Shown piece after piece: positions 25,459 to 54,388 of a DNA stretch of 64,000 nucleotides. The notes below the pieces were generated by a model. It was not told the DNA's origin. It made no database searches and was given only the letters and a program-made list of their open reading frames with translations. Each line of letters begins with the position of its first letter. Positions within the stretch are counted from its first letter, which is position 1. Position numbers and translations under genes: made by a program. The stretch lies in contig NZ_JACATN010000001.1 of assembly GCF_018603515.1 (NCBI RefSeq), positions 248,001 to 312,000 of the forward strand, in the 5' to 3' direction. Source of the stretch: Zobellia barbeyronii. GTDB taxonomy: Bacteria; Bacteroidota; Bacteroidia; Flavobacteriales; Flavobacteriaceae.

Positions 25459-25531
25459 GGTGCCTTAGCTCAGTTGGTAGAGCAATGGACTGAAAATCCA
25501 TGTGTCCCTGGTTCGATTCCTGGAGGCACCA
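25459..25531 (+). tRNA. tRNA-Phe (anticodon GAA)
   Basis: A 73-base tRNA. The acceptor stem GGTGCCT pairs with AGGCACC and the discriminator is A. The D arm is GCTCAGTTGGTAGAGC, the anticodon stem ATGGA/TCCAT encloses the loop CTGAAAA with anticodon GAA, and the T arm CCTGG-TTCGATT-CCTGG is intact. The gene sequence continues ACA, so the complete CCA end is not encoded and must be added. It is flanked by a consensus promoter and a strong terminator, so it is an independent transcription unit. Confidence 0.97.
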
Positions 25532-50945: not shown

Positions 50946-52307
50946 ATGCCTAATACACCTGCCACATACTGGAAGCTTCACAAAGTGCCCATACTTATGG
51001 CCCTATTGGGTGCTATTCTCTATTACACCTTTGCTTTTCAGCTAGAGCGGACAGATTTCATTAAACTGTTAACCCTTTTTGCCGCTTCCTTTTTTCTGTG
51101 CTTAAAACTCATACAATTCGAAAAATGGAATCTAAAGTTTCTTTTGGTTGTAGGTGTTATTTTTAGGCTCATTTTCTTGTTAACAGAACCAAATCTCTCT
51201 CAAGATTATTATCGTTTTATTTGGGATGGACATCTTGTTGGCAATTTCATCAACCCCTACTTGGAAGTCCCCAACAACTTAATTACCCAAAGCGATTTAG
51301 TCATCCCCAATGCTCAACTCCTTTATAACAGTATGGGAAGTCTTAGCGCAAAACACTTTAGTAACTACCCACCGTTAAATCAGTTACTGTTTGCCATAGC
51401 AGCCCTTTTAGGAGGCAAAAGTATTATGGGCTCGGTACTTGTTATGAGAACGATGATTATTCTGGCAGATATAGGCATCTTGTACTTTGGCAGAAAACTA
51501 TTAAAAAACCTTAACCAATCACCGCATCTCATATTTTGGTATTTCTTAAACCCTTTGGTTATAATAGAACTTACTGGAAACCTACATTTTGAAGGTGTTA
51601 TGCTTTTCTTTTTTGTTTGGTCGCTCTATTTATTATCCGTTAAAAAATGGAGATTAGCAGCCATTCCCTATGCCCTATCTATTTGCGTAAAACTGGTACC
51701 CTTATTGTTTTTACCCCTTTTCCTTAAACACCTTGGCTTCAAGAAAAGTATAACCTTCTATATCATAATAGGCGCAAGCTGTTTATTGATGTTCGCTCCG
51801 TTCTACTCTTCTGAATTCATTGCTAACTATTCCGAAACTGTAGGTCTCTGGTTTTCAAACTTTGAATTCAATGCGGGTATTTACAATGCTATTAAACAAA
51901 TCTCAATTCAGTTTGACGGTAAACCTTGGGAACTCATAAAAACTTATGGAAAAATAACACCTATTGTTACTATACTAGTTGTACTGCTGTTCACTTTTTT
52001 AAGAGACAATCAGAAAATATCAGTTTTAATAACCTCAATGCTCGCCGTACTTACTTTGTATTATTTCATGTCTGCCACAGTACACCCTTGGTACATAGTA
52101 TTTCTGGTAGTGCTTGGCATTTTTACTCGCTATAAATATGCTATACTTTGGTCCGCTACGGTAATACTTAGCTATTACGCTTATTCAAAGATGGACTTTA
52201 AAGAAAACTTAGGATTAATTGCCGTTGAATATATTTCCGTATATGCGTTTTTGATTTACGAAATTTTTAACTCAAAAGAGCAATTTGTTATTTTTCGCAA
52301 AAATTAA
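50946..52307 (+). CDS. GT-C fold polyprenyl-phosphate-dependent glycosyltransferase
   Basis: A 453-aa polytopic membrane protein, about 11-12 hydrophobic segments. The first large loop has the GT-C signature SQDYYRFIWDGHLVGNFINPY near 83-103 (SQDYYRFIWDG then NPYLEVPNN), with the acidic residues expected to bind the polyprenyl-phosphate sugar. The family resembles mannosyltransferases of the GT87/MptA-B kind. Its sugar is probably supplied by the DPM-like enzyme at 48683. Because no gene follows closely and a long gap precedes the arginine operon, it likely ends the glycan unit. Sugar and acceptor unknown. Confidence 0.78.
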   Translation: MPNTPATYWKLHKVPILMALLGAILYYTFAFQLERTDFIKLLTLFAASFFLCLKLIQFEKWNLKFLLVVGVIFRLIFLLTEPNLSQDYYRFIWDGHLVGNFINPYLEVPNNLITQSDLVIPNAQLLYNSMGSLSAKHFSNYPPLNQLLFAIAALLGGKSIMGSVLVMRTMIILADIGILYFGRKLLKNLNQSPHLIFWYFLNPLVIIELTGNLHFEGVMLFFFVWSLYLLSVKKWRLAAIPYALSICVKLVPLLFLPLFLKHLGFKKSITFYIIIGASCLLMFAPFYSSEFIANYSETVGLWFSNFEFNAGIYNAIKQISIQFDGKPWELIKTYGKITPIVTILVVLLFTFLRDNQKISVLITSMLAVLTLYYFMSATVHPWYIVFLVVLGIFTRYKYAILWSATVILSYYAYSKMDFKENLGLIAVEYISVYAFLIYEIFNSKEQFVIFRKN

Positions 52308-52354
52308 CCGAACACCTTTATACTTTCGCCCTAATCTTGTACATTTGGTTTTCC

Positions 52355-52432
52355 ATGAAAGGACAAAGACACATATATAACACTTTGAGCAATCTTGCTC
52401 CTGTTCGCCCGGCTTCTCGCCGTCGCCCGTAA
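52355..52432 (+). CDS. Arginine-rich leader peptide, putative attenuator
   Basis: A 25-codon ORF from ATG 52355 to TAA 52430, in front of the arginine operon. Arg residues are at positions 5, 18, 22, 23 and 24, with codons AGA, CGC, CGC, CGT and CGC. The peptide therefore ends VRPASRRRP, with four Arg in the last eight residues. Such enrichment directly before an arginine biosynthetic operon is the hallmark of leader-peptide attenuation, where shortage of charged tRNA-Arg stalls the ribosome. The Arg codons lie in and beside a 4-bp hairpin (52410-52422) and a GNRA-loop hairpin that covers the stop codon (52424-52437). This is an inference from sequence; no antiterminator was proven. Confidence 0.7.
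   Translation: MKGQRHIYNTLSNLAPVRPASRRRP
52387..52400 (+). repeat. Short hairpin in the arginine leader
   Basis: GAGCAA (52387-52392) and TTGCTC (52395-52400) are exact reverse complements separated by two bases, inside the leader ORF. Alternative pairing with neighbouring sequence is possible. Confidence 0.35.
52410..52422 (+). repeat. Short hairpin over the Arg codons of the leader
   Basis: CGGC (52410-52413) pairs with GCCG (52419-52422) around TTCTC. It spans codons 19-23 of the leader ORF, so a ribosome waiting at those Arg codons would melt it. Confidence 0.4.
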
Positions 52433-52437
52433 GGGTG
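52424..52437 (+). repeat. GNRA-loop hairpin over the leader stop codon
   Basis: CGCCC (52424-52428) pairs with GGGTG (52433-52437), one G-U included, around GTAA, a GNRA tetraloop. The TAA stop of the leader lies in this loop and stem edge. A ribosome at the stop would open it. Confidence 0.5.
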
Positions 52438-52520
52438 TATATATTTCATGGGAATAGGTGAGTCCATTTCCGCAAAACGACCAACAATTCATTTTTTTTA
52501 CAGTTTAAACCCTTTTGGCA

Positions 52521-53144
52521 ATGAACATAATTATTGCTAACAAGTCACATCTTAAATACGCTCAAATCATTAGCGATACCATTACGGAATCTGCTAAGGT
52601 AAGAGGCACAGGCATAGCTAAACGTACACCGGAATATATTCTGAAACGTTTAGAGAATGGTAATGCCGTTATTGCTTTAGATGGCGACAAATTTGCGGGC
52701 TTCTGTTATATAGAAGTCTGGGGGCACGAGAAATTCGTAGCGAATTCCGGCCTTATTGTTCATCCTGATTATAGAAATCAAGGATTGGCAAAAAAAATCA
52801 AAAAAAGAATTTTCGAGCTTTCGAGAGACAAATTTCCAGATGCCAAAATATTTGGTATCACTACTGGCTTGGCCGTAATGAAAATGAATTACGAACTTGG
52901 TTATAAACCAGTTACATTTTCTGAACTAACCGATGACCCAGAGTTTTGGAAAGGCTGTCAAACGTGTAAAAACTTTGATATTCTTACACGTACCGAACGT
53001 AAAATGTGCCTTTGTACAGGTATGCTATATGATTCAGATGTGAAAGAGAAAAAAGTTGAAAAAGAACATATCAACAGTAAAGCTTTCAAAAGACTCAAAA
53101 GCATTAAAGAATCGCTTTTTCTTAAAAAGAAAACAAACGAATAA
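52521..53144 (+). CDS. GNAT acyltransferase, candidate first enzyme of the arginine operon
   Basis: A 207-aa GNAT enzyme; the ATG at 52521 is used (a TTG two codons earlier is in frame). The acyl-CoA loop is VHPDYRNQGLAKKIKKRIFE near 80-99, with the RNQGLA pyrophosphate-binding turn. The C-terminal part holds four Cys: GCQTC at 146-149 and MCLC at 163-165, a possible metal-binding tail uncommon in GNATs. A Lys-rich tail follows. No argA or argJ is in the operon, so this gene is the best candidate for the N-acyl-glutamate synthase (acetyl or succinyl). That is inferred from position. It lies 53 bases upstream of argG, after the leader peptide. Confidence 0.7.
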   Translation: MNIIIANKSHLKYAQIISDTITESAKVRGTGIAKRTPEYILKRLENGNAVIALDGDKFAGFCYIEVWGHEKFVANSGLIVHPDYRNQGLAKKIKKRIFELSRDKFPDAKIFGITTGLAVMKMNYELGYKPVTFSELTDDPEFWKGCQTCKNFDILTRTERKMCLCTGMLYDSDVKEKKVEKEHINSKAFKRLKSIKESLFLKKKTNE

Positions 53145-53197: not shown

Positions 53198-54388
53198 ATG
53201 AAAAAATTAGTTTTAGCATATAGCGGCGGATTAGACACTTCCTACTGCGCTAAATACCTATCACAGGAACAAGGTTTTGATGTACATGCAGTAAGCGTAA
53301 ATACTGGTGGTTTCTCCAAAGAAGAGATTGCTTCTATAAAAGAGAAAGCAATACAATTGGGTGCCAGTTCGTATACTTCTATTGATGCCGTTCAGATTTT
53401 TTACGATAAAGTTGTAAAATATCTCATCTTTGGTAATGTTCTAAAAAACAATACATATCCCCTATCTGTTAGTGCAGAACGAATTGTACAAGCTATAGAG
53501 ATAGTAACTTATGCCAAAAAAATTGGTGCAGATTATATCGCTCATGGTAGTACTGGCGCTGGTAACGACCAAGTGAGATTTGATATGATTTTTCAAATCA
53601 TTGCTCCCGAGATTGAAATCATCACTCCTATTAGAGATAACAAATTATCTAGGGAAACAGAAATTGCCTACCTAAAAGAGAATGGTGTAGATTATCCTTG
53701 GGAAAAAGCTAAGTATTCTATAAACAGAGGTCTTTGGGGAACATCTGTTGGTGGTGAAGAAACATTAACTTCTCAAAATGCATTACCGGATAGTGCATAC
53801 CCAAGCCAATTACAAGAAAAAGAACCTACGGATGTAAAACTAACTTTTGAAAAAGGTGAACTTGTTGCTATTAATGGAGATAAAGATACTCCTGTTGCCA
53901 ATATAGAAAAACTAGAAGCTATGGCTTCTAAATATGCTATTGGCAGAGACATTCATGTTGGTGATACCATTATTGGTACAAAAGGTAGAGTTGGCTTTGA
54001 AGCTGCTGCCGCATTAATCATCATAAAAGCACACCATTTATTAGAGAAACACACCCTAACCAAATGGCAACAATTCCAAAAAGAACAACAAGGTAACTTC
54101 TATGGAATGTTATTGCATGAAGGTAACTACCTAGATGCTGTAATGAGAAATATTGAAGCCTTCTTAACAGATACACAAAAGAACGTTTCTGGTGATGTTT
54201 TCCTAAGCCTTTACCCTTTCCAGTTTAGATTAAACGGAATTTCATCTAAACACGATTTAATGACCGATGCTTTTGGTAGCTACGGTGAAGTAAATAAAGG
54301 ATGGTCTGCTGATGATGCAAAAGGTTTTATAAAAATACTTTCTAATTCTGGAAAAATATATAACCACGTAAATCAGAATAATGATTAA
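53198..54388 (+). CDS. argG: Argininosuccinate synthase ArgG
   Basis: ArgG joins citrulline and aspartate with ATP to make argininosuccinate, the seventh arginine step. The 396-aa protein has the pyrophosphatase loop AYSGGLDTSYC at 6-16, HGSTGAGNDQVRF near 115-127 (citrulline and aspartate contacts), the SINRGLWGT block near 175-183 and the EGNYLDAVMRNIEAF block near 304-318. Length is typical. It is the first classical arginine gene after the GNAT and overlaps argC by 8 bases, so the pair is translationally coupled. Confidence 0.95.
   Translation: MKKLVLAYSGGLDTSYCAKYLSQEQGFDVHAVSVNTGGFSKEEIASIKEKAIQLGASSYTSIDAVQIFYDKVVKYLIFGNVLKNNTYPLSVSAERIVQAIEIVTYAKKIGADYIAHGSTGAGNDQVRFDMIFQIIAPEIEIITPIRDNKLSRETEIAYLKENGVDYPWEKAKYSINRGLWGTSVGGEETLTSQNALPDSAYPSQLQEKEPTDVKLTFEKGELVAINGDKDTPVANIEKLEAMASKYAIGRDIHVGDTIIGTKGRVGFEAAAALIIIKAHHLLEKHTLTKWQQFQKEQQGNFYGMLLHEGNYLDAVMRNIEAFLTDTQKNVSGDVFLSLYPFQFRLNGISSKHDLMTDAFGSYGEVNKGWSADDAKGFIKILSNSGKIYNHVNQNND

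Follow-up and report, generated by a model that had tools for sequence, protein, structure and literature searches.

A candidate arginine-codon-rich leader peptide and a conserved hairpin ahead of the arginine biosynthesis operon of Zobellia barbeyronii

The window analysed here is a stretch of 64,000 nt from Zobellia barbeyronii, in which an arg operon headed by a gene for a GNAT N-acetyltransferase is preceded by a short ORF and two hairpins (Table 1). The stop codon of the upstream gene ends at position 52307 and the GNAT gene begins at 52521, which confirms the 213-base gap pointed out in the first-pass annotation of this DNA. The short ORF, hereafter the leader ORF, lies inside this gap; it had been described as a 25-codon frame with four Arg among its last eight residues, encoded by three CGC codons and one CGT, and this description proved correct. 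The four codons read CGC, CGC, CGT and CGC, and a fifth Arg, at codon 5, is encoded by AGA.

Table 1. Positions of the leader elements and operon genes in the window.
Feature	Positions	Strand	Remarks
Putative -7 promoter element	52340..52347	+	TACATTTG (TAnnTTTG type), 7 nt 5' of the leader ATG
Leader ORF	52355..52432	+	25 codons, MKGQRHIYNTLSNLAPVRPASRRRP then stop; ATG 52355, TAA 52430-52432
Hairpin 1	52424..52437	+	CGCCC-GTAA-GGGTG; last Arg codon, Pro codon and stop inside
T-rich spacer, hairpin 1 to hairpin 2	52438..52449	+	52% T (83 loci, fixed 16-nt stretch)
Hairpin 2	52450..52471	+	Stem GGGAAT/ATTTCC, bulged A 52456, GG/CC, loop TGAGT
G-poor segment, hairpin 2 to GNAT	52472..52520	+	Candidate Rho-loading stretch; no intrinsic terminator detected
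GNAT N-acetyltransferase	52521..53144	+	207 aa, first gene of the arg operon; Pfam PF00583 above cut-off
argG	53198..54388	+	Argininosuccinate synthase, second operon gene; above NCBIfam cut-off
Operon after argG	to 63612		argC, proC-like, argD, proA, proB, carbamoyltransferase, argB, argE-like and argH-like ORFs

Among the operon genes, argG, argC, argB and the N-acetylornithine-type carbamoyltransferase passed the NCBIfam cut-offs, and argD is the best NCBIfam match of its ORF, yet below the cut-off. The proC-like, proA, proB, argE-like and argH-like ORFs were named from their sequences by recall, and these names are presumptive. The GNAT protein obtained no NCBIfam assignment above cut-off, only a weak match below it; it may be the missing N-acylglutamate synthase.

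The element TACATTTG is of the TAnnTTTG type, which we take to be the -7 promoter motif of Bacteroidota. If it is indeed a -7 box, the transcript may be nearly leaderless, with the mRNA starting almost at the leader ATG. A pattern search in 84 loci of the family of the window (f1; families are designated below by our own numbers) found such an element in 30 and none in the other 54, and in 16 of these 30 an ATG follows 7 nt after it. As a separate observation, the string ACATA occurs near leader codons 5-8 in 13 of 18 promoter-anchored f1 leaders, versus 11% of shuffles; in a wider stretch, it is found in 37 of 83 f1 loci, versus 15% of shuffles, and in 19 of 28 leaders of family f35, a count made without control.

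The f1 sample comprises nearly one genome per genus. The GNAT protein was present in 98 of its 149 genomes, and we examined the upstream regions of 90 of these, leaving eight out of the counts that follow. An ORF was scored as Arg-rich when it held at least three Arg in its last 20 residues and its stop codon fell 60-200 nt short of where the fetched stretch ends, close to the GNAT start. Of the 90 loci, 83 had such an ORF, as did 13.5% of the dinucleotide shuffles and 22 of the 90 reverse complements. In one f1 genome, G194, the operon is present and no Arg leader was seen on reading its upstream region. We then aligned 85 of the 90 loci (alignment A1), excluding L030, L045 and L056, in which hairpin 2 is unclear, as well as L034 and L081; the position of the motif was placed by hand for L034, L057, L081, L085 and L088 and adjusted for L016. 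The terminator scan, the spacer composition and the 115-nt folds reported below were based on 83 loci.

In this alignment, every one of the 85 loci has CGC as its last Arg codon, and the position before it holds CGT in 57, CGC in 20, CGA in two, CGG in one and a codon other than Arg in five, so that Arg occupies these two positions in 85/85 and 80/85 leaders. Farther upstream, Arg recurs at scattered places in a variable peptide: at none of the 12 codons preceding the last Arg is another residue shared by half of the 85 leaders, Phe coming closest with 34 at one place. The last Arg is followed by Pro in 82 leaders, by Thr in two and by Leu in one, and a stop codon comes next in 72; the other 13 have no stop there. 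The idea of an Arg leader therefore survived the comparison of the ORF and its Arg codons among relatives that the first-pass annotation had proposed, both within f1 and, as described below, beyond it.

Upstream of hairpin 1, the 12 codons considered in the 85 leaders include 268 Arg codons, of which 244 are CGY, 16 AGR and 8 others, versus 66 CGY and 122 AGR among the 242 Arg codons of the GNAT genes of 30 f1 loci; the f1 sequences are related and not independent, so that Fisher values for this contrast overstate the surprise. AGA is the commonest Arg codon in fourteen ORFs of the window (57 of 146). These counts argue that the type of Arg codon, not the amino acid alone, is selected in f1 leaders outside hairpin 1. 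The bias could partly stem from a constraint of RNA structure, at least in f35.

The first-pass annotation had placed the stop codon in a hairpin with a GNRA loop and had drawn a second hairpin over the Arg codons, at 52410-52422. The former, our hairpin 1, is present and conserved in f1, with 88.4% of cells paired across the 85 sequences, but its loop is not universally of the GNRA type, the first base being G in 63 of 85. The latter can form here but is not conserved, 32.3% of its cells being paired versus 31.0% in shuffles. Covariation within hairpin 1 is weak, with both-side changes in one pair and two cells only, because its 5' arm is fixed by the Arg(-Pro) codons. When its arms were compared with permuted partners, as an intended positive control, z was -2.3; the segments used were badly placed and the 5' arm is nearly invariant.

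Hairpin 2 is the strongest element of the locus, and it lies outside the coordinates covered by the first-pass annotation. Its apex, AGGTGWGTCC, is near-invariant in f1 and comprises the bulged A, the GG/CC pairs and a U-G-W-G-U loop; the literal string AGGTGNGTCC occurs in 78 of 90 f1 loci, 63-280 nt away from the GNAT-proximal end of the stretch fetched. The loops of L034, L045, L056 and L081 diverge further, as judged by eye. Across the 85 sequences, 93.4% of cells are paired in the outer stem and 98.4% in the inner part. All five outer-stem pairs show changes on both sides, and in one sequence A-U replaces the second G-C pair of the inner part. For the two-hairpin structure as a whole, we counted 69 cells changed on both sides versus 20.8 (sd 3.5) in shuffles, and 67 of the 69 fall within hairpin 2; sliding the partners by one column lowered pairing to 53-62%. 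Nine pairs of segments, two of them controls, were tested against permuted partners, and the arms of hairpin 2 (z 13.8) were the sole standout.

Support for hairpin 2 comes from this covariation and not from predicted folding energy. The hairpin appears in the minimum-energy folds of 52424-52471 and 52424-52520 and in that of a 115-nt segment in 63 of 83 f1 loci, six of the 83 pairing the apex downstream instead; when the leader of the window is folded at full length (52353-52530), the minimum-energy structure lacks it. Compared with shuffles, the fold energy had a z of -1.3 for hairpin 2 alone and -2.0 together with hairpin 1.

At the Rfam gathering score, the window matched only a tRNA, at 25459-25531, and hairpin 2 had no match; ten leader loci scanned up to E 0.5 likewise matched no Rfam family. 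In its own genome, AGGTGWGTCC has nine matches versus six for the reversed control, and one of the nine lies in a hairpin, as judged by eye. A covariance model of the two-hairpin structure gave at most one match per genome, in 30 of 296 genomes of the order. Twenty-two of these matches are strong and all in f1; the 14 of them that were checked lie ahead of GNAT. The eight weak ones (L123-L130, E 7e-4 to 8e-3) are off target by their flanks, and one of them (L125, in G194) falls inside a CRISPR-like array and is a false positive for the leader.

Three readings of hairpin 2 were discarded. A general element of amino-acid leaders was rejected, since the hairpin is unique by eye in its own genome and the model matches at most once per genome. 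In L057, a change of the second G of the AGGTG apex comes with a change of the C facing it; on these grounds we rejected a Shine-Dalgarno-like role of the apex and, on inspection, also dropped a pseudoknot between the apex and hairpin 1. The likeliest role would be that of a site for a bound protein or of a signal acting on RNA polymerase.

We also looked for a competing structure that could serve as a switch in f1. None of the seven non-control pairs of segments (z -2.3 to about +1 versus permuted partners) revealed a conserved helix, whether competing or long-range. In the fold of 52424-52520, AAGGGU of hairpin 1 pairs with ACCCUU before GNAT and hairpin 1 is not formed; this candidate helix was set aside, as 51 of 100 shuffles were at least as good (29 loci). 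Folding the window leader with a masked ribosome footprint revealed no clear switch.

In a sample of the phylum, 61 of 148 genomes encode the same GNAT, and we read 40 upstream regions outside f1, plus three more. The Arg-rich ORF test was passed by 15/15 loci in f35, 4/5 in f17, 5/5 in f18, 2/2 in f19 and 4/4 in f22, versus 16-20% of shuffles and 15 of 31 reverse complements; this last rate is high partly because runs of CGG read as Arg on the other strand too. The test failed in f5 (0/2), f34 (0/1), f37 (0/1) and f23 (0/1), and in four f5 genomes the operon is present and no Arg leader was seen. Passes in f36 (1/2), f39 (1/1) and f41 (1/1) say little, as 56-72% of the shuffles also pass. Typical leader ends are RIPRRR in f35, SRRRPYMPRA in f17, RPRRPRR in f18, LRRFRRPSGV in f19 and LRRNRFTFRV in f22.

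The favoured Arg codons differ from those of f1. In f35 leaders, CGG accounts for 109 of 173 Arg codons versus 19 of 255 in GNAT genes. The f35 ORF was obtained from 29 of 30 loci, none coming from L226, at a contig end, and a wrong ORF from L241; the three Arg codons of L241 are included in the codon counts, and the other f35 counts omit this locus (28 leaders). L227-L229 are near-identical and L245 contains N bases. For f17, f18, f19 and f22 together, CGA or AGG make up 21 of 32 Arg codons in eight leaders versus 11 of 80 in ten GNAT genes, a grouping that was chosen after seeing the leaders, the leader ends being hand-picked in 8 of 10 loci.

The f35 leaders have an RNA structure of their own. 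Nucleotides 13-32 of the leader can form a long-range helix with a segment that starts 43-63 nt after the leader stop. Over 26 leaders, its mean score was 18.7 versus 15.0 (sd 0.53) in permutations, the highest of 300 permutations reaching 16.7, and the helix was consistently placed in 25 of the 26, L224 being the exception. In an alignment of 19 f35 leaders (A2), from which we excluded L228 and L229, as near-identical, and six leaders of genus g312, 16 cells were changed on both sides versus 6.4 (sd 2.0); the number of changed pairs (4 versus 3.2) and of pair types (7 versus 7.3) was not above shuffles. Different RNA structures thus accompany the same kind of peptide. The long-range helix of the f35 loci (L218-L247) encloses the Arg codons and a further hairpin, and a third hairpin seems, by eye, to lie before GNAT; in part of the family, the leader end CGGCGGTAA can pair with TTACCG ahead of the long-range helix, which was likewise judged by eye and without control.

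Within f1, genus g127 has a different conserved ORF, near MNKISLHITSLSRTNSPITSPEVRTLSL and about 250 nt 5' of GNAT (L131-L134, L188-L214). A search with the DNA of one such leader, the matches being thus chosen for similarity, gave a strong match in 27 of 61 genomes, and the GNAT motif follows in all 27. Two CGG Arg codons are present in each of the 27, whereas four GNAT genes of the genus have a single CGG among their 21 Arg codons, and the list of matches with two CGG does not depend on the CGG-containing anchor pattern of the per-codon table. No strong match of the two-hairpin model was listed for this genus, and one weak match is false. Compared with the f1 leader, the g127 ORF has more the look of a conserved peptide. 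As an isolated observation, L135 (G200, family f15 of the same order) has an Arg-rich ORF ending DRFRRQPNRQ 96 nt before GNAT; this is one locus, without control.

Bacterial arginine synthesis is usually taken to be controlled by a repressor of the ArgR type. ArgR (PF01316) was detected in 6 of the 80 genomes tested. Five of these come from families without a GNAT match in the phylum sample (f24, f26, f27, f29 and f31), and in f37 GNAT is present together with five weak ArgR matches. None was found in 39 f1 genomes or in 22 genomes of f17, f18, f19, f22 and f35, so that the suspicion of the first-pass annotation that ArgR is absent holds in all 61 genomes tested from leader-bearing families. 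This fits a leader that takes the place of ArgR, without a strict exchange, as the f5 genomes showed neither.

Leader ORFs with intrinsic terminators occur in the same lineage. The own genome of the window carries a His leader, MKNRTTHHHIHTHAQAR, ahead of hisG (L258, G000:C33), and a hairpin followed by a T-run was found in 15 of 15 hisG leaders from this genome and 14 relatives, nine of them of the genus of the window. The scan detected 2 of 15 with a window of 200 nt, which was too short, and 15 of 15 with 300 nt, a length at which no shuffles were run; a His-rich ORF was listed in 14 of the 15 loci, L257 being the exception. This suggests that the lineage uses leader attenuation. Among the Arg leaders, scanned from the Arg codons to GNAT or, for the 16 loci of f17, f18, f19 and f22, over the last 190 nt, intrinsic terminators were found in 2/83 loci of f1, 0/28 of f35 and 2/16 of f17/18/19/22, with 0-1% in mononucleotide shuffles. 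A looser scan of the window leader found hairpin 1 only, one match versus 0.6 expected. We therefore rejected a textbook attenuator with an intrinsic terminator, 81 of the 83 f1 loci having none by a scan that finds all 15 his terminators.

The segment between hairpin 2 and GNAT contains 7% G and has a C/(C+G) ratio of 0.72 (29 f1 loci), and the ratio is 0.70 between the leader stop and GNAT in f35 (28 loci). By comparison, it is 0.46 after the his terminator (eight loci), and five other intergenic regions of the window give 0.59. Such a G-poor stretch with more C than G would suit Rho loading and proves nothing.

We consider it likely that the ORF encodes a leader peptide that regulates the arg operon, and that ribosome stalling on it senses charged tRNA-Arg and acts without an intrinsic terminator. 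A ribosome would translate the leader ORF soon after the start of the transcript. When charged tRNA-Arg for CGU/CGC is scarce, it would stall on the clustered Arg codons and keep hairpin 1, and what depends on it, unformed, and the operon would stay on. When arginine is plentiful, the ribosome would reach the stop codon and depart, hairpins 1 and 2 would form and expression of the operon would be cut. In this scheme we infer that the ORF is translated and that the ribosome stalls, as well as which way the operon responds and how the final step works. For that step we propose, tentatively and short of an even chance, that Rho terminates transcription within the G-poor stretch downstream of hairpin 2; mRNA decay and control of GNAT translation are the alternatives. 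A route through Rho and without terminator comes first by exclusion, together with the precedent of the speF leader of Salmonella discussed below.

Regarding the signal, the first-pass annotation had offered two options, sensing of charged tRNA-Arg and sensing of free arginine by the nascent peptide. We favour the former over the latter because only Arg recurs in the leaders, the preferred Arg codons vary from family to family, and 13 of the 85 f1 leaders lack the Pro-stop end. TnaC and SpeFL are arrest-peptide sensors, and the nascent RRRP-stop end could similarly bind free arginine in the ribosome and block release. In favour of such a peptide, 82 of the 85 leaders have Pro behind the last Arg, and 72 have a stop next to that; however, hairpin 1 also accounts for an RRP-stop end, 13 leaders have no stop at that place and three read Arg-Thr (two) or Arg-Leu (one) there, no residue other than Arg attains half of the leaders upstream (Phe, at the top, in 34 of 85), and it is the codon type, not the amino acid alone, that seems selected. 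An arrest peptide is thus unlikely.

Similarly improbable is that hairpin 2 is itself an operator or aptamer for a protein or a small molecule, the ORF being secondary. Its near-invariant apex, bulged A and fixed loop, and model matches limited to one per genome at most, would agree with this, but the strong matches are confined to f1 (22 of 296 genomes of the order), whereas Arg-rich leaders precede the same gene in families where hairpin 2 was not seen. We give an equally small chance to a classic his-type attenuator with an undetected intrinsic terminator. Hairpin 1 and the T-rich stretch behind it (52% T) would be the obvious example, being the weak terminator-like match mentioned above; yet terminators are nearly absent from the Arg leaders of f1, f35 and f17/18/19/22, all 15 his leaders have one, and a ribosome sitting on the stop codon would mask hairpin 1. 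That only RNA structure is conserved, in an untranslated ORF whose Arg codons are the by-product of a C- and G-rich helix, would explain the last Arg codon inside hairpin 1 and is highly improbable, as the codon 5' of the hairpin stays Arg in 80 of 85 leaders despite third-position changes (CGT, CGC, CGA and CGG), and families whose RNA structures differ also have Arg-rich frames.

Returning to a leader peptide that senses charged tRNA-Arg, a broader reading is possible, if on balance slightly doubtful. ArgR-less Bacteroidota may share an old and widespread leader system without terminator, whose RNA would have been rebuilt in each lineage and whose sensor would have been retuned to other tRNA-Arg isoacceptors (CGY, CGG, CGA/AGG); in f1, the readout would pass through a new AGGUGWGUCC hairpin read by Rho, RNA polymerase or a binding protein. 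To our knowledge, RNA-based control has been little studied in Bacteroidota. A leader that senses Arg codons would, if true, explain arginine control in lineages without ArgR and provide a testable case of leader-peptide control without an intrinsic terminator. Moreover, the family-specific codon choice would amount to a natural experiment in the selection of a tRNA by attenuators, and the near-invariant hairpin 2 offers a concrete target in the search for a new RNA-binding factor or RNA-polymerase signal.

The leader of the his operon of Enterobacteria is a His-codon-rich ORF that acts as an attenuator, and the Arg leader shares with it, as with L258 of the own genome, a short ORF that lies before the biosynthetic operon and abounds in codons for the amino acid of the pathway. 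Compared with the his/trp type, clustered pathway codons before the cognate operon are present and the intrinsic terminator is not: all 15 his leaders scanned have one, whereas 81 of the 83 f1 Arg leaders have none and bear a hairpin with a near-fixed apex instead. A TnaC-like arrest peptide would have conserved residues besides those of the substrate and a fixed stall site; the f1 leaders show, upstream of the last Arg, no residue but Arg in half of the 85 sequences, and a stop after Pro in 72. The arginine attenuator peptide of fungi is likewise encoded by an upstream ORF, which senses arginine and precedes a gene of the arginine pathway; the likeness is drawn from its description, not by sequence, and it differs in being eukaryotic, conserved as a peptide and responsive to free arginine.

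A bacterial precedent is the speF leader of Salmonella, in which Arg codons of orf34/SpeFL sense arginine by ribosome pausing, no Rho-independent terminator was found, and Rho and RNA decay are involved (PMC6386406). That leader controls ornithine decarboxylase (PMC6386406), whereas the one of the window precedes genes of arginine synthesis. The 25-aa peptide of the window did not match DUF2618, the conserved core of SpeFL, and had no Pfam match at E 0.01. A study of Flavobacterium psychrophilum reports strong indications that leader peptides attenuate amino-acid operons and names hisG and pheA among the conserved 5' elements; in its main text, argG is not mentioned and the sole mention of arginine concerns cyanophycin (PMC9723704). 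A literature search of partial coverage recognised no named arginine leader peptide in Bacteroidota. Control by leader peptides is already known, and what would be new in the present case is an arginine version without an intrinsic terminator, a family-specific hairpin absent from Rfam, and a retuning of codons between families.
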